A stretch of 58,103 bases of DNA from Anaerolineales bacterium (GTDB taxonomy: Bacteria; Chloroflexota; Anaerolineae; Anaerolineales; Villigracilaceae). The notes below the pieces were generated by a model. That model saw only the letters and a program-made list of their open reading frames with translations. It made no database searches and had not been told where the DNA came from. Both the position numbers and the translations under genes were made by a program. The stretch lies in assembly GCA_014379595.1 (NCBI GenBank), contig JACMLM010000004.1, positions 1-58,103 of the forward strand, read 5' to 3'. Of the stretch, positions 10,589-25,623 are shown piece by piece (position 1 is the first letter of the stretch; the number at the start of each line of letters is the position of its first letter).

Positions 10589-10934
10589 TTTTACCTCCAA
10601 TTAGGTTTGATTTGATTTGTTCTTTCGCCCTTACTTTATCAATCAATTGTGGATGTATTGTGGATGAGAGCAGGAGGGTTTGTGGAGGCTGTATAAGAAG
10701 AACGTAAATAGTTTGCCACAGAGTTCACAGAGAAAATGAGATTTAAGAGGTTTTTCTCGAAGGTCTCGGTGTTCTCTGTGGCCTAATTGAGTTATTGGTC
10801 AAGTTGTGTTTCATGCAGTTTTGTAACTGTTCATCCATAAGAGCAGGTGATAAAATGTCCTGCTGTAAAATATAGGCAGGTTGTGTTGTCCTGATAATGT
10901 AAGATAATTCAAATAAAATATAAGAGATGGTCGA
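10589..10934. other. 346-nt divergent intergenic region
   Basis: This gap lies between the minus-strand membrane protein gene and trxB. It holds one copy of a CACAGAG inverted-repeat element (10715-10782, listed separately). The remainder has no open frame with a ribosome-binding site. The 70 nt before trxB are AT-rich and may hold its promoter, but no confident -35/-10 pair stands out. Confidence 0.6.
10715..10782. repeat. CACAGAG inverted-repeat element, copy 1
   Basis: A 68-bp element bounded by GCCACAGAG and its exact complement CTCTGTGGC. The inner left side repeats the unit (TTCACAGAGAAAA) and the inner right side has TTTTTCTC...GTTCTCTGTG. A related element of 96 bp is at 24390-24485. 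The form resembles a small non-coding mobile or REP-like repeat. Confidence 0.7.
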
Positions 10935-20648: not shown

Positions 20649-21041
20649 ATGAAAGAATTTAGAAATCCGCAAAACATGCATCAACCTATTGGCGCATATA
20701 TGCATCAGGCGGAAATCAGTACTGAGCGGATGTTGATTATCTCGGGACAAGTGGGGATGAAAAAAGATGGTACCGTGCCAGAAGACCCTATTGAACAATT
20801 AGATTTGGTATTCGAAAATATCCTGCGCAATCTTGAAGCTGCAGATATGGAAATGAAAGATCTGGTCAAGATCAATTATTACCTCGTAGGCGAATGGGAT
20901 ATAGCCAGGCGCCGTGAAATAGTTGCCTCAAAATTAGCCGGGCATAAACCTTGTTCAACTTTAGTATATGTAGCTGCATTAGCTAGCCCAATTTATAAAG
21001 TGGAAGTGGAAGCTTGGGCAAGTCGCGCAGATAAAAGCTGA
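20649..21041 (+). CDS. Rid family (YjgF/YER057c/UK114) protein
   Basis: A 130-residue member of the Rid superfamily of small trimeric proteins; RidA hydrolyses reactive enamines and imines made by PLP enzymes. The family outline is clear: MLIISGQVGMKKDGTVP, DPIEQLDLVFENILRNLEAA, VKINYYLVGEWDIA and the C-terminal VEVEAWAS. The arginine that defines active RidA, normally in an R-P-x-R-S-like strand, is replaced here by KPCSTLVYVAAL, so deaminase activity of the RidA kind is doubtful. GAGGAG lies 9-10 nt upstream of the start. Genes before and after run in the same direction. Confidence 0.88.
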   Translation: MKEFRNPQNMHQPIGAYMHQAEISTERMLIISGQVGMKKDGTVPEDPIEQLDLVFENILRNLEAADMEMKDLVKINYYLVGEWDIARRREIVASKLAGHKPCSTLVYVAALASPIYKVEVEAWASRADKS

Positions 21042-21071
21042 GCCTTTGTTGTTGTATAAGGAGTGTTTTTT

Positions 21072-21521
21072 ATGAGTGCTATACAGCCACAACCGATTTC
21101 GATTGCTCCTGGTGTGGGCAGGCTATTGAAGCATCTGGGCGTTACACACAAATTAACAAGTGTGCAGACTAGTGGAGCTTATTATCTTTGCGAAGCCGTA
21201 TTTGGACCAGAAAGTGGAAGCCCTCTTCATATTCATCATTTTGAAGACGAAGTTATTTATGTGCTCGAAGGTGCAATTGACGTTCGACTTGATAATGAAA
21301 AGTTGCAGGCTCCTGTAGGTGGAATTATCCACTTGCCAAAAAATATTCCTCATGCACTTTACAACCCTTTGAAAATTCCATTGAAGATCATGGTTTATGC
21401 GATCCCAGGTGGGTTGGAAAATTATTTCGATGAAATGGAAACTGCTTTAGAGGGCGGTGTCTCAGATAATGAAACTTTTAACGAAATCTCAATTCGGTAT
21501 GGGATCGAGTGGTTGGAATAA
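21072..21521 (+). CDS. Cupin-domain protein
   Basis: A 149-residue single-domain cupin. The metal-binding cupin motif 1 reads HIHHFEDEVIYVLEG (about 53-67), with His, His, Glu in place. Motif 2 has the His in NIPHALYNP (about 95). Such proteins are small beta-barrels used as dioxygenases, isomerases or storage proteins, and the substrate cannot be read here. AAGGAG at 21058-21063 fixes the start at 21072, not the in-frame GTG at 21063. It is 30 nt after the Rid gene and 3 nt before the YdeI gene, so these three probably form an operon. Confidence 0.85.
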   Translation: MSAIQPQPISIAPGVGRLLKHLGVTHKLTSVQTSGAYYLCEAVFGPESGSPLHIHHFEDEVIYVLEGAIDVRLDNEKLQAPVGGIIHLPKNIPHALYNPLKIPLKIMVYAIPGGLENYFDEMETALEGGVSDNETFNEISIRYGIEWLE

Positions 21522-21524
21522 GAG

Positions 21525-22106
21525 ATGAATATGAAATCTGAACTTCCAACTCTCACCTTTGTATCCCAAAAGAAATGGGGAGACTGGCTTGCGAAACAGC
21601 ATGACAAATCTGCTGGTGTATGGATGAAATTGGCAAAAAAAGATTCTGGCATTGAATCAATCACAATTACGGAAGCCTTGGATGTTGCTCTGTGCTACGG
21701 CTGGATTGATGGTCAGAGGTTGAGTTTTGACGAAAAATATTATCTGCAAAAATATACCCCTCGTAGACCGAAGAGCATTTGGTCAAAGATCAATGTTGAG
21801 AAAGTAGAGAGATTAATTAAAAGTGGTGAAATGAAACCTGCTGGATTCAAAGCCATCGAAGCTGCCAAAGCTGATGGGCGCTGGGCGCGGGCATATGATG
21901 GGCAGAAAAATATGTCTGTGCCCGAGGATTTTCAATCTGAGTTGAATAAAAGCAAAAAAGCCAAGGCTTTCTTTGAGACACTCAATCGCGTAAACCGGTA
22001 TGCGATTTTATTCAGGATCCAAACTGCAAAGAAGGAAGAAACACGTGTGAAGAGAATCAAGCAGTTTGTGGAGATGCTTGAAAAGAATGAAAAGATTTAT
22101 CCGTAA
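21525..22106 (+). CDS. YdeI/OmpD-associated family protein, copy 1
   Basis: A 193-residue member of the YdeI/OmdA family, annotated in many genomes as bacteriocin-protection proteins with little direct evidence. Typical motifs are EALDVALCYGWIDGQR, YLQKYTPRRPKSIWSKINVEKVERLI and the C-terminal RVKRIKQFVEMLEKNEKIYP. It is soluble. Another family member is at 32895-33458 and a broken one at 36371-36506. An in-frame ATG lies 6 nt downstream and could be the real start. It ends at a long palindromic terminator shared with the convergent WYL regulator gene. Confidence 0.85.
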   Translation: MNMKSELPTLTFVSQKKWGDWLAKQHDKSAGVWMKLAKKDSGIESITITEALDVALCYGWIDGQRLSFDEKYYLQKYTPRRPKSIWSKINVEKVERLIKSGEMKPAGFKAIEAAKADGRWARAYDGQKNMSVPEDFQSELNKSKKAKAFFETLNRVNRYAILFRIQTAKKEETRVKRIKQFVEMLEKNEKIYP

Positions 22107-22114
22107 AAAGAAAT

Positions 22115-22168
22115 AAACCTGAAATGATAAAAGCTCCCAAGCTTGGGAGCTTTTATCATTTCAGGTTT
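22115..22168. terminator. 54-bp perfect palindrome, bidirectional terminator
   Basis: A 27-bp stem without mismatches, centred on AAGCTT, with AAAAGCTCCC in the inner arm and AAACCTGAAATG in the outer arm. It starts 8 nt after the YdeI stop and its last base directly abuts the WYL regulator stop codon (22169), so it fills the whole gap between the two convergent genes. Confidence 0.85.
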
Positions 22169-23119
22169 CTATTTTGCCAAACTTGCTAACTTCTCTGAAT
22201 GTTTCTGCAGCTCTACCTTCAATTCCTCTGGTTCGCGTACAACAAAATCGAATGAGAATACAGATAATTGCCTTGCTAACCAGTCTAGGTCTTCAACACT
22301 CCCGCGCATGATGATCCCATCTTTGTGCGCTTCGAGAACACCCAGCACGTCAAAGACTTCATGTTGAGCTCTTGTAATATCTGTTTTAAGTAAAAGTTCA
22401 AAAGCATATTTGCGCGGCAATGTGGCAATCGCCTGCATCATATGCGCCAGCGGATCAAAACCTTCAGGACGTTCAAAATGTGTATTGATTTCTTTGATCT
22501 GTGTGATGCGGTCTAACCGGAATGAACGCAGGTCTTGACGTAGATGACAATACCCAACCACATACCATTTGTTTAAGTAATAAGTCAGTCCATACGGATC
22601 GAAATCGCGTTCTGTGTCCTCGCCTTGAGTGGGATGATATCCAATATGAACGCGTTGATGAAGTTGTGCGGCACTGCTCATAGTGCTGAGTACTACCTCG
22701 CTCGGTGGTGTGGACGAAGCAGTGCTCTGGTCAAGGGTGATCGTTTCGGTCAGTGCGCGCACACGGCTCTTTAGATCGAGCGGCATGACCCGTTCCAGCT
22801 TGGCGAATGCACTTTCGATAGCGCGGTCGGTATCGGCGAGGTTGAGGCGGCGCGCGGAAATTAATCCGACGGTTAAGGCCAGCGCCTCCTCGTTGGTGAA
22901 CATCATCGGCGGGAGTTTGAATCCCGCCGATAATACATAGGCACCGTTGCGTCCGCGCTCTGATTCGATGGGGATGCCGAGATCTTGCAGCATGATGATA
23001 TAACGCCGCAAGGTGCGGATGTTCACTTCAAGCCGTTGAGCCAGCTCCGGACCGGGCATGCGTCCATGAGCTTGCAACAATGCTAGCACAGCTAAAACAC
23101 GTGTAGTGGGGTGATACAT
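22169..23119 (-). CDS. WYL-domain helix-turn-helix regulator
   Basis: A 316-residue transcription regulator. The N-terminal winged helix-turn-helix (about 5-60: RVLAVLALLQAHGRMPGPELAQRLEVNIRTLRRY is spread over the two helices) is followed by GIPIESERGRNGAYVLSAGF. The WYL domain (about 150-230) has DFDPYGLTYYLNKWYVVGYC, and a C-terminal WCX extension ends the protein. WYL regulators sense small molecules or nucleic acids. A -10 box TATACT (23133-23128) lies only 8 nt before the ATG with no Shine-Dalgarno, so the mRNA may be leaderless. It is the last gene of a minus-strand run including NIPSNAP and three DUF1579 genes, its likely targets. Confidence 0.9.
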   Translation of the reverse strand: MYHPTTRVLAVLALLQAHGRMPGPELAQRLEVNIRTLRRYIIMLQDLGIPIESERGRNGAYVLSAGFKLPPMMFTNEEALALTVGLISARRLNLADTDRAIESAFAKLERVMPLDLKSRVRALTETITLDQSTASSTPPSEVVLSTMSSAAQLHQRVHIGYHPTQGEDTERDFDPYGLTYYLNKWYVVGYCHLRQDLRSFRLDRITQIKEINTHFERPEGFDPLAHMMQAIATLPRKYAFELLLKTDITRAQHEVFDVLGVLEAHKDGIIMRGSVEDLDWLARQLSVFSFDFVVREPEELKVELQKHSEKLASLAK

Positions 23120-23143
23120 ATTCGGCGAGTATACACCAGCCGT

Positions 23144-23890
23144 TTAGATTGCTCCTGTTAAACGTGAACGTGAAGTGGGAATCAATCTCAATATCTCTGG
23201 TTTTCTTTTGAGCCGCTGTGTCAGAAATTTTGAAATTTCCTTGTTCCATAGTTTTGACTTTGCAAGCACGGCGGCCTGACGTTCATGTGCTGCCTGATTC
23301 TGAAAGCCTGCAAACCAAATGAAAACACTTTCGCCTTCACGTACTGGCAAGGCAGGAAATGTATTCGGACTATCCTCTGTGACAAAGTAAGCAAGGATGT
23401 AAGCACCAGCATCTGTTAGTACAGGTTTGATCACGTTTTCAAAGTAGTTAATGAAATCAGAATCTGCCGGTCTACCAAAATAATAGATAGTGGCTGTTAT
23501 AAATCCATTGCGTAACTCAGTACTGCCTAACGGTAGACGATGCTCATTTTCGAGCGAGAATCCAGAGGTCGAGTGAGCGAGGCGCAATAAGAGGACGTTA
23601 TCCGAATCGATCATAGTTGAGTTTGCTACGTTGCGATGTTGCTTCCAAACAGGTCCGCTGTAGAATGCATTCAGTGATTCTTTACGTGCAGACATATCGT
23701 TGAATCCGCGCAGCCAGACAAATTGATCTGGATCATCGAGATTGCGAAATTGTCCAATGACCTGAATACCTACAGCTTCTTGCGTCTCTACAAATTCGCG
23801 GTCGAAGAGCTCGATCAAGATATCGCGTTTGCCGGGGTGCAGTGTATACTGCCTGAGTTCGACGATGGGGGAATAAGTTTGCGAGTTCAT
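23144..23890 (-). CDS. NIPSNAP family protein
   Basis: A 248-residue protein with two ferredoxin-like NIPSNAP domains. The first opens with IVELRQYTLHPGKRDILIELFDREF (residues about 9-33), a family hallmark. The second is near 130-230 (GFITATIYYFGRP). NIPSNAP proteins are small dimeric alpha/beta-barrel proteins of unclear biochemical role. Its ATG overlaps the stop of the upstream DUF1579 gene by 4 nt (ATGA), so translation is coupled and the two products probably act together. The WYL regulator gene follows 24 nt downstream. Confidence 0.88.
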   Translation of the reverse strand: MNSQTYSPIVELRQYTLHPGKRDILIELFDREFVETQEAVGIQVIGQFRNLDDPDQFVWLRGFNDMSARKESLNAFYSGPVWKQHRNVANSTMIDSDNVLLLRLAHSTSGFSLENEHRLPLGSTELRNGFITATIYYFGRPADSDFINYFENVIKPVLTDAGAYILAYFVTEDSPNTFPALPVREGESVFIWFAGFQNQAAHERQAAVLAKSKLWNKEISKFLTQRLKRKPEILRLIPTSRSRLTGAI

Positions 23891-24363
23891 GTTCGTTCAA
23901 ACTCCATCACCCAATTTGTTTCCCAGGTTTTTCCACCATCGGCTGATAAAGCCTGCTCCCATTGACATGAGTTCACTGTGATCTTTGACCAGATGAAGCG
24001 GCTGTATACATGCTTGCTTTCGTGGATTTCCTGCGCATAAAATTCACCACGCCCATCTTTGAATCTGCCGATCATGGGAATGTCCAGATATCCCATTTTG
24101 TCCGTTGACCAGTGGATGCTCCACTCTTTTGACGCTGGATTGAAGACACGCAGACTAATGGCGTGGACTGAACCTGTTTTCATGTGAATGATGTTTTCAT
24201 CCATGTTGCCCAGCCCGTTCATAATTTTTCGGTCAACTGTTTCGCCTTCGAATTCGGCCCAATCCGTTGATCCTTTCAGCCGTGCCGTCAACATGCGGTG
24301 ATGAACCTTCCAGGTGCCGATCAGGAAATCAAAATCATTTCGTCCGTCGTTTTCTGTTTGCAT
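23887..24363 (-). CDS. DUF1579-family protein, paralog 1
   Basis: A 158-residue member of the DUF1579 family, probably a lipocalin-like beta-barrel. It begins MQTENDGRNDFDFLIGTWKV, continues with MIGRFKDGRGEFYAQE and ends WEQALSADGGKTWETNWVMEF. Two further paralogs are upstream in tandem (24500-24979 and 25072-25548), all starting with MQTENDGRNDFDFL. This copy alone overlaps the NIPSNAP gene and lacks the 39-bp repeat found before the other two; a CACAGAG repeat element occupies its upstream space. Function is unknown; family members are often next to NIPSNAP or WYL genes. Confidence 0.88.
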   Translation of the reverse strand: MQTENDGRNDFDFLIGTWKVHHRMLTARLKGSTDWAEFEGETVDRKIMNGLGNMDENIIHMKTGSVHAISLRVFNPASKEWSIHWSTDKMGYLDIPMIGRFKDGRGEFYAQEIHESKHVYSRFIWSKITVNSCQWEQALSADGGKTWETNWVMEFERT

Positions 24364-24389
24364 CTGTTGCTCCTTGTAATAAAACTTTT

Positions 24390-24485
24390 GCCACGGAGTT
24401 CACACACCTGCCCTGGCGGGCGGTGCCAGGGGAGATCTCTGAGAAAGAGCTCTTAAAACTCATTTTTCTCTGTGCGCTCTGTGGC
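24390..24485. repeat. CACAGAG inverted-repeat element, copy 2
   Basis: A 96-bp element bounded by GCCACGGAG and CTCTGTGGC (one mismatch to perfect inversion). It is related to 10715-10782 and contains an extra internal palindrome (CCCTGGC...GCCAGGG) and an AAGAGCTCTT palindrome. It fills most of the gap between DUF1579 paralogs 1 and 2. Confidence 0.7.
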
Positions 24486-24499
24486 TATATTGATTTTAA

Positions 24500-24979
24500 T
24501 TACTCAACTCTCTCGAATGTGTTCATCCAGTTGGTTTCCCATGTCTTGCCACCATCAACGGAAAAAGCCTGTTCCCATTGAGCGGAATTGGGCGTGATCT
24601 TCGACCACGTGAAGCGACAAAAGATGTGCTGACCTTCGTAGACTTCCTGCGAATAAAATTCTCCGATGCCGTTCTTGAAGCCGCCGATCATCGGAGTATC
24701 AAGTACGTTACTTGTGCCCGCTGACCAATAGATGCTCCACTCCTTCGAGTTGACATCGAAGAGCCGTACCGTGTAGCCATAGTTGTATCCCGTGGAGCGG
24801 TTGATGATGACTTCGTCAGTATGACCCAGTCCGTTGAGGATCTTTTTGCCTATGGCTGTTCCATCAAACTCTTCCCATTCTGTGCATCCTTTCAGCCGTT
24901 CCTTCAGCCGTCGGTGACGCATGATAAAGTTCCCCACGAGGAAATCAAAATCGTTGCGGCCATCATTTTCTGTTTGCAT
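24500..24979 (-). CDS. DUF1579-family protein, paralog 2
   Basis: A 159-residue DUF1579 protein. It shares with its neighbours the N-terminus MQTENDGRNDFDFLVG, the middle MIGGFKNGIGEFYSQEVYEG and the end AFSVDGGKTWETNWMNTFER. It is preceded by GGAG-like GGAGCGCAAC before the ATG. A 39-bp repeat (25014-25052) lies 34 nt upstream and contains a possible -10 box TACACT on the minus strand. There is no signal peptide, so it is cytoplasmic. It is a recent tandem duplicate of paralog 3 by spacing and shared upstream sequence. Confidence 0.88.
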   Translation of the reverse strand: MQTENDGRNDFDFLVGNFIMRHRRLKERLKGCTEWEEFDGTAIGKKILNGLGHTDEVIINRSTGYNYGYTVRLFDVNSKEWSIYWSAGTSNVLDTPMIGGFKNGIGEFYSQEVYEGQHIFCRFTWSKITPNSAQWEQAFSVDGGKTWETNWMNTFERVE

Positions 24980-25013
24980 GTTGCGCTCCTTAGATTTTTT
25001 TGAACTACATACT

Positions 25014-25052
25014 CAGTGTAGGAATGAATGCGGACAGGATCGTTCCTAATTT
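25014..25052 (-). promoter_or_regulatory. 39-bp direct repeat, copy 1 (putative operator/promoter)
   Basis: The sequence from 25014 to 25052 recurs at 25585-25623 with 37 of 39 bases identical. On the minus strand it ends in TACACT, a possible -10 box. It contains inverted arms TAGGAA (25019-25024) and TTCCTA (25043-25048) separated by 18 nt. Its position upstream of DUF1579 paralog 2 suggests a binding site for the neighbouring WYL regulator; this is inferred. Confidence 0.6.
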
Positions 25053-25071
25053 AGAAGGGGATTTGAATTAC

Positions 25072-25548
25072 TCATGTCCGTTCAAACTTCATGACCCAGT
25101 TTGTTTCCCATGTTTTCCCCTCATCATCTGAAAGCGCCTGTTCCCATTTGCATAAATTTGGTGTGATGTCATACCAGAGGGAGCGAGCCAGCACTTTTCT
25201 GCCTTCAAATTCCTCTTCTGAAGAAAACTCGCCGACGCCATTTTTGAATTTACCCACTACGGGATCTTGTAGAACTCCATTGGCACTATCCACCCAATAT
25301 TGACTCCACTCTGTTGATTTGGGATTGAATATGCTGAGGGATGTGCCATATAAGCGGCCCGATTCTCTTTCAAAGGTCATTTCTTCTATATTGCCGATGC
25401 CACCCATAATTGCTCGGTCTACAACCGTGCTTTCGAACTCATCCCATTGTGTGGACCCTTTTAACAGTTCTTTCAACCTGCGGTGATGGACTTTCCAGCT
25501 TCCAACGAGAAAATCAAAATCGTTCCGTCCGTCATTTTCTGTTTGCAT
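25072..25548 (-). CDS. DUF1579-family protein, paralog 3
   Basis: A 158-residue DUF1579 protein, first of the three in transcription order. It starts MQTENDGRNDFDFLVGSWKV, has VVGKFKNGVGEFSSEEEFEG in the middle, and ends QALSDDEGKTWETNWVMKFER. AGGAG lies 9-13 nt before the ATG. The second copy of the 39-bp repeat (25585-25623) is just upstream, with TATACT as a possible -10 box. Spacing between the starts of paralogs 2 and 3 is 569 nt, close to the 571 nt between the repeats, so gene and control region were duplicated as one unit. Confidence 0.88.
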   Translation of the reverse strand: MQTENDGRNDFDFLVGSWKVHHRRLKELLKGSTQWDEFESTVVDRAIMGGIGNIEEMTFERESGRLYGTSLSIFNPKSTEWSQYWVDSANGVLQDPVVGKFKNGVGEFSSEEEFEGRKVLARSLWYDITPNLCKWEQALSDDEGKTWETNWVMKFERT

Positions 25549-25584
25549 ATAAAAACTCCTATACTGTGATGTGACTTACATCAT

Positions 25585-25623
25585 CAGTATAGGAGTGAAT
25601 GCGGACAGGATCGTTCCTAATTT
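25585..25623 (-). promoter_or_regulatory. 39-bp direct repeat, copy 2 (putative operator/promoter)
   Basis: The second copy of the element at 25014-25052. Its minus-strand end reads TATACT, a good -10 box, with no matching -35, as expected for an activator-dependent promoter. It overlaps the 3' end of the DMT transporter gene, including its stop codon (25617-25619). An imperfect inverted repeat (25561-25590) partly overlaps its downstream side. Confidence 0.6.

Follow-up and report, generated by a model that had tools for sequence, protein, structure and literature searches.

A promoter element common to a WYL-NIPSNAP cassette and to detoxification-type genes suggests a shared stress switch

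Computational analysis of a 58,103-nucleotide (nt) stretch of an Anaerolineales bacterium (contig JACMLM010000004.1; hereafter the window) centered on a five-gene cassette on the minus strand. In order of transcription, it comprises three paralogous genes for small proteins that we refer to as the D family (D3: 25072..25548, 158 amino acids; D2: 24500..24979, 159 amino acids; D1: 23887..24363, 158 amino acids), a NIPSNAP gene (23144..23890; 248 amino acids) and a gene for a WYL regulator (22169..23119; 316 amino acids), the last two being 24 nt apart. The source genome, a 4.47-Mb draft assembly of 72 contigs, is related to the Anaerolineales metagenome-assembled genome (MAG) L020 (L numbers designate loci in other genomes). 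This layout was described in the initial annotation of the window, as were the 4-nt overlap of NIPSNAP with D1 and the identical first 14 residues of D1, D2 and D3 (MQTENDGRNDFDFL), and all three points were borne out; as a whole, the earlier observation was partly confirmed and holds with corrections, and the interpretation placed on it was partly supported. All three domains of the regulator exceeded their Pfam cut-offs (WYL PF13280: 76.7 bits, cut-off 21.8; HTH_11: 47.3, cut-off 25; WCX: 28.0, cut-off 23.9), placing it among the WYL transcription factors, and the NIPSNAP protein belongs to its family by the same measure (PF07978: 45.2 bits, cut-off 22.3). The D proteins had been assigned to DUF1579 (PF07617), a label that Pfam did not uphold: against a cut-off of 25.2 bits, D3 scored 17.2 bits, and neither D1 nor D2 gave a match. 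Elsewhere in this genome, a gene on contig C38 does exceed the cut-off (114.5 bits), and hhalign found no match between the D family and the protein it encodes, the single true DUF1579 protein of the source genome. Since 28 of 78 aligned D-family members match DUF1579 at E ≤ 0.01 (best 2e-6) while the cut-off is missed, “DUF1579-like” is a fair label and “DUF1579” is not, and sequence comparison supports distant kinship only.

Two of the three D genes are preceded by a common element, a 21-bp imperfect palindrome (TTAGGAC-N7-GTCCTAA) followed after 8 nt by TAnACT and lacking a -35 hexamer. Upstream of D2 and D3 it reads TTAGGAACGATCCTGTCCGCATTCA[TC]TCCTA[CT]ACT, 36-38 nt ahead of the start codon. 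The candidate D2 promoter lies on the minus strand at 25015..25049 (palindrome at 25029-25049, TTAGGAACGATCCTGTCCGCA; 8 nt; -10-like TACACT at 25015-25020) and the candidate D3 promoter at 25586..25620 on the same strand (palindrome at 25600-25620; 8 nt; -10-like TATACT at 25586-25591). The element was matched twice in the window and never in 100 shuffles. With a matrix derived from 20 sites of other genomes, none of which precedes a D gene, the two best scores over the whole 58 kb were those of D3 (39.4) and D2 (34.3), the next being 10.2, and nothing was found upstream of D1, NIPSNAP, WYL or the adjoining EamA gene. The proposal that the copies had kept their upstream elements was therefore upheld for D2 and D3 and failed for D1, where the gap is occupied by a dispersed repeat; a common operator before D1 was rejected, its best score being worse than that of 102 of 200 shuffles. 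Outside the window, the element is retained upstream of the D2 ortholog in L020 and of a D3 relative in L064.

To establish the wider distribution of the element, 400 Chloroflexota genomes were searched with the pattern TTAGGRWCRATCCTGTCC-N11-TANACT (≤3 mismatches), which returned 30 sites in 19 genomes; the reversed control returned none. Twenty-six sites directly precede a gene, and four (L101, L105, L106 and L118) have no gene close by. The targets are six D genes (two of them the window's own), six VOC/glyoxalase genes, four SRPBCC-type genes (AHSA1 or Polyketide_cyc2), two DinB-like genes, two isochorismatase genes and two MFS genes, with one each for an epoxide hydrolase, a DJ-1/PfpI protein, DUF3224 and a protein without a family. 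Pfam families among the 17 targets that were scanned were Glyoxalase/Glyoxalase_6, DinB_2/DUF1706, AHSA1, Polyketide_cyc2, Isochorismatase, EHN, DJ-1_PfpI, DUF3224 and MFS_1; targets L103, L104, L107, L115, L123, L124 and L128 were assigned via similarity or by eye, and L111, which had no Pfam match, was called DinB-like by eye. A promoter common to the cassette and to detoxification-type genes suggests a shared stress switch. In a stricter form, TGTC-N12-TAnnnT, the element occurred in 8 of 86 upstream regions (81 of D-family genes elsewhere plus five from the window) against a shuffle mean of 0.155; the TGTC about 12 nt ahead of the -10 is as in the RecA-NDp motif of PafBC. Across 33 selected sites, an average of 4.30 of 7 positions pair between the two arms, compared with 1.06-2.33 when shifted by 1-3 positions. 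When a -35 was sought at a distance of 16-18 nt, the best match covered only 2 of 6 positions in 18 of these 33 sites and never more than 4, no better than in shuffles.

The element is also associated with WYL genes, six of its 30 sites (L102, L103, L104, L106, L108 and L110) being located between such a gene and a divergent position. When 301 Chloroflexota genomes were searched with the window's WYL protein, 49 matched at 1e-40, and 29 other loci were returned for the best matches. In these loci a matrix of 28 sites was run over the 260 nt preceding each WYL start. The divergent strand beat all 100 shuffles at 27 of the 29 loci (one of which, L176, is the training site L108), and no same-direction site did so. 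The divergent neighbors, classified by eye, were DinB-like (7), VOC-like (6), isochorismatase-like (4), and epoxide-hydrolase-like, dienelactone-hydrolase-like and SnoaL-like (1 each), with nine lacking a clear call. In divergent WYL-D gaps, none of 200 shuffles was as good as the site in Acidobacteria L061 or in Colwellia L092, and a weaker site in Undibacterium L081 was equaled by 2 of 200 shuffles (none of 200 when the non-D matrix was used). A palindrome search of 25 D-WYL loci was noisy: L020, L030, L081 and L092 were retained (upstream of D, with TAGG/CCTA-type arms), and nothing convincing appeared in the Lysobacteraceae loci of this set. The strict form was rejected as a universal WYL-linked signal, being too narrow (5 sites in the 29 loci, control 1). 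It might be argued that the element serves another trans-acting regulator, WYL genes being just frequent neighbors of similar targets, given that 20 of 25 wider stretches around the sites have no WYL gene nearby and that the source genome holds two other WYL genes. At 27 of 29 loci, however, the element occupies the WYL-divergent gap and fires away from WYL, which makes this very unlikely.

To evaluate whether the cassette recurs, D relatives were sought in one genome per species, and the best 80 of 130 confirmed relatives were used as loci. Within 3 kb of D, these best 80 loci carried a WYL gene in 25 cases, a NIPSNAP gene in 24 and both in 18, whereas neither turned up in the 359 flank-side bins covering 3-6 kb, and chance neighborhood was rejected on this basis. 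Absence of the arrangement from all other genomes had been named beforehand as the outcome that would overturn the idea of a cassette; instead, both linkages (D-WYL and D-NIPSNAP) span unrelated phyla. The 18 loci with both genes belong to Lysobacteraceae (14), two Chloroflexota MAGs, one Acidobacteria MAG (with a partial NIPSNAP at the contig end) and one Rhizomicrobium MAG. The WYL proteins of Lysobacteraceae (∼230 amino acids), Rhizomicrobium, Dyella and others belong to subfamilies other than that of the window, so the pairing of D genes with WYL regulators has arisen repeatedly. Several Lysobacteraceae D frames (L043, L058, L062 and others) have, by eye, a signal-peptide-like start, which raises the possibility of an exported barrel in that family, in contrast to the window. 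Within the window's own order, the D family is patchily distributed, with matches in 13 of 201 genomes and strong ones (E < 1e-40) in only two besides the source genome. In the single literature collection searched, no report of the cassette combination or of the promoter element was found.

The three copies had been explained as recent duplications retained for dosage, and some features of the locus would suit that view: the copies stand in tandem with the same first 14 residues, the D2 and D3 promoters are 88% alike over 52 nt, and at least two D copies occur at 28 of the 80 loci elsewhere. It is nonetheless contradicted by saturated synonymous divergence and by a separate ortholog for each copy, and we regard it as hardly credible. 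Protein identity is 59% for D1-D2, 58% for D1-D3 and 53% for D2-D3, with synonymous sites saturated, so that “recent” is wrong. D2 is 93% identical to copy a of L020 (nonsynonymous divergence [dN] = 0.04, synonymous divergence [dS] = 1.07) and D1 is 82% identical to copy b (dN = 0.11, dS = 1.85). In a 78-row tree (74 relatives after thinning at ∼72% identity, the three window copies and L008), D1 groups with L020 copy b (support 100/99), D2 with L020 copy a (100/99) and D3 with L064 (100/100). L020 also keeps the order D2-like, D1-like, NIPSNAP, WYL. Judged from these divergences, the D copies have been separately retained for a long time under purifying selection, with no recent increase in dosage. 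The first four residues of the window copies (MQTE) differ in their orthologs (MATQ, MQVE); their being common to the window copies only may reflect local homogenization in this lineage.

The D protein was predicted as a ten-stranded barrel (mean predicted local distance difference test score [pLDDT] of 96.1). The folds nearest to the model are the spirocyclases OlmO (Z = 19.1, root mean square deviation [rmsd] of 2.0 Å over 140 residues) and OssO (Z = 17.9, 2.5 Å over 143 residues), and by this model the D family has the same barrel fold at 11-12% identity (7sfn, 7sfp; PMC6490886). No polyketide synthase context was seen among the window's open reading frames. Nitrobindin, a haem-binding barrel with an axial histidine, gave a weaker match (Z = 14.5, rmsd of 3.5 Å), and fatty-acid-binding proteins likewise resembled D more weakly than did OlmO and OssO. 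A turn of the form SxDxGxTW (residues 140-147 in the window copies) gave weak BNR/sialidase matches and is presumably Asp-box-like; kinship of D to kelch or sialidase chains was rejected, the profile matches being short and repeat-like. The NIPSNAP protein was modeled with AlphaFold2 (mean pLDDT of 92.3) as two ferredoxin-like halves of the dimeric alpha/beta-barrel type. Its nearest folds are sulfur oxygenase reductase (Z = 16.7), the PenE monooxygenase (15.3) and an anthrone-oxidase-like protein (15.2), and the first half superposes on the NIPSNAP structure 5k9f (Z = 9.7, rmsd of 1.6 Å over 102 residues).

A profile of the WYL protein built from 24 homologs was compared with solved structures and matched PafBC best (2.3e-30), with further matches to DriD (8tp8; 1.2e-8), BrxR (6e-8) and CapW (5.3e-6 and 1.6e-5). 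In the alignment, the single-stranded DNA (ssDNA)-binding residues of PafB are kept in the window protein, R171, Y186, R194 and R198 corresponding to PafB R181, Y196, R204 and R208 (PafB numbers from the literature, assuming an offset of two in the chain numbering). CapW and BrxR are WYL repressors, and the WYL protein might similarly occupy the palindrome as a repressor, blocking RNA polymerase until released by a ligand: the palindrome lies over the -35 region, a position from which repression is also feasible, and the BrxR match is near that of DriD. We consider this unlikely, because the sites have no -35 hexamer, which suits activation and is also the case at DriD promoters, because the best profile match, PafBC, is an activator, and because the regulator lies inside its own presumed target unit.

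To our knowledge, only a few WYL activators have been described (PafBC, DriD and SiwR). DriD of Caulobacter crescentus is driven by ssDNA and targets the SOS-independent damage genes didA, bapE, recJ and dnaG; its site, ATACGAC-N7-GTCGTAT, overlaps a weakly matching -35 and keeps a constant distance from the -10 (PMC12340889). The geometry of the window element is that of DriD-type promoters (a 21-bp pseudo-palindrome with 7-nt arms, a 7-nt spacer and inner GAC/GTC, a poor -35 and a fixed distance to the -10), but the arm differs, being TTAGGAC rather than ATACGAC. SiwR activates the dinS operon of Mycobacterium smegmatis from an imperfect palindrome of 19 bp that lies between the -35 and the -10; its targets are DinB genes, joined in some genomes by a pfam18029 gene (PMC10693628). 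As with SiwR, the WYL gene of the window stands beside small-molecule-type genes and an imperfect palindrome precedes the -10, and both a DinB_2 gene (L109) and a pfam18029 glyoxalase-like gene (L114) follow the element elsewhere. Unlike in the actinobacterial SiwR arrangement, where the WYL gene is divergent from the DinB operon, the window regulator is co-directional with its neighbors at the operon end, and its presumed targets are D and NIPSNAP; divergent DinB-like genes were noted by eye beside WYL in relatives such as L164, L168 and L170. PafBC of mycobacteria acts as a heterodimer on a non-palindromic motif (PMC11804915, PMC6789036, PMC8223512). Although it is the closest solved sequence relative of the window WYL protein, with ssDNA-binding residues that align, the window locus has a single WYL gene in place of adjacent pafB and pafC, and its element is palindromic.

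Based on PafBC as the best profile match, the kept ssDNA-binding residues and the DriD/SiwR-like architecture, we infer that the WYL protein is an activator, and it appears probable that from a DriD/SiwR-like promoter it induces D3 and the unit D2-D1-NIPSNAP-WYL against harmful small molecules. The protein would act as a homodimer whose WYL domain binds a ligand, most likely ssDNA from damaged nucleic acid, or possibly something different. Once liganded, it would engage the 21-bp palindrome, which would take the place of a -35 at 8 nt before the TAnACT -10, and recruit a sigma70-type RNA polymerase. Its two targets in the window would be D3 and the D2-D1-NIPSNAP-WYL unit, and as the WYL gene stands at the end of the latter, the regulator would raise its own level in a positive feedback. 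D proteins, as small beta-barrels with a predicted ligand pocket, and NIPSNAP, as an alpha/beta-barrel of the antibiotic biosynthesis monooxygenase (ABM) or cofactor-free monooxygenase type, would together, most likely, bind or convert harmful small molecules; this role is proposed because the promoter keeps detoxification-type company, the modeled folds alone being insufficient.

Several observations weigh against this activator reading. Related genomes contribute many near-duplicates, both among the 30 sites (L102-L104, L113/L123, L114/L115, L125/L128) and among the 29 WYL loci (L160/161, L170/171/173/174, L184-186). The strict form is missing from 78 of the 86 upstream regions, and with no more than 5 occurrences among the 29 WYL loci, the half-site must drift; in the window itself the right arm is degenerate, 4 of 7 positions pairing. 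Two WYL loci (L162 and L163, the latter scanned from a corrected start) are without the element. A WYL hit lies within ∼6 kb in only 5 of the 25 wider site stretches, and for the 20 others action in trans must be assumed. Lysobacteraceae D loci pair with another WYL subfamily, and the conserved WYL residues are widespread among WYL domains generally.

D and NIPSNAP could instead have an ordinary metabolic or ligand-carrier role (for a lipid, haem or a polyketide-like intermediate), with WYL sensing a metabolite. The resemblance of D to OlmO and OssO, and more weakly to nitrobindin and fatty-acid-binding proteins, would fit, as would the variety of ligands among WYL proteins (PMC10693628). Such a role seems improbable, as the same promoter serves unrelated families of detoxification type. 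The statement that no function is known for this combination stands for the D family, though the promoter now ties D to a wider detoxification-type class. Provisionally, the element, together with its association across several phyla with WYL genes and genes of detoxification type, may be regarded as new, a variant of SiwR/DriD regulation with new effectors. More tentatively, and with less confidence than we place in the activator reading, this system could represent a new WYL-dependent promoter class in Chloroflexota, Acidobacteriota and Proteobacteria that couples nucleic-acid damage to diverse detoxification proteins, one family per cassette, with D as a new OlmO-like enzyme or scavenger family. 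If the element is genuine, the targets of many uncharacterized WYL regulators would be predictable from sequence, and the function-unknown families D, NIPSNAP, DUF3224 and DUF1706 would gain a common context in induction by DNA damage or toxic compounds.

A different palindrome, TGACA-N6-TGTCA, precedes the D genes of Mesorhizobium (L029, L031, L032, L036 and L088), standing at a similar distance ahead of a CTATNN -10-like box; no WYL gene was found near these D genes. In the window, the D2-D1 gap (24378..24499) holds the dispersed palindromic repeat mentioned above, which has strong hairpin potential (folding z of -4.65) and 22 matches in the genome including itself, mostly partial; this hairpin repeat may weaken read-through. 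A further partial match lies in the window at 10715-10767. The EamA stop codon (25617-25619) falls inside the left arm of the D3 operator, so the D3 promoter is embedded in the end of the EamA gene. No known RNA element or tRNA was found in the window. Terminator-like sites numbered 9 in the region against a shuffle mean of 4.7, and one such hairpin (22118..22165), between the WYL gene and a convergent YdeI/OmdA-like gene, is where the cassette is predicted to end. Beside the cassette, RidA-like (Ribonuc_L-PSP), cupin and YdeI/OmdA-like genes on the plus strand (20649-22106) form a small cluster of further stress-type genes.

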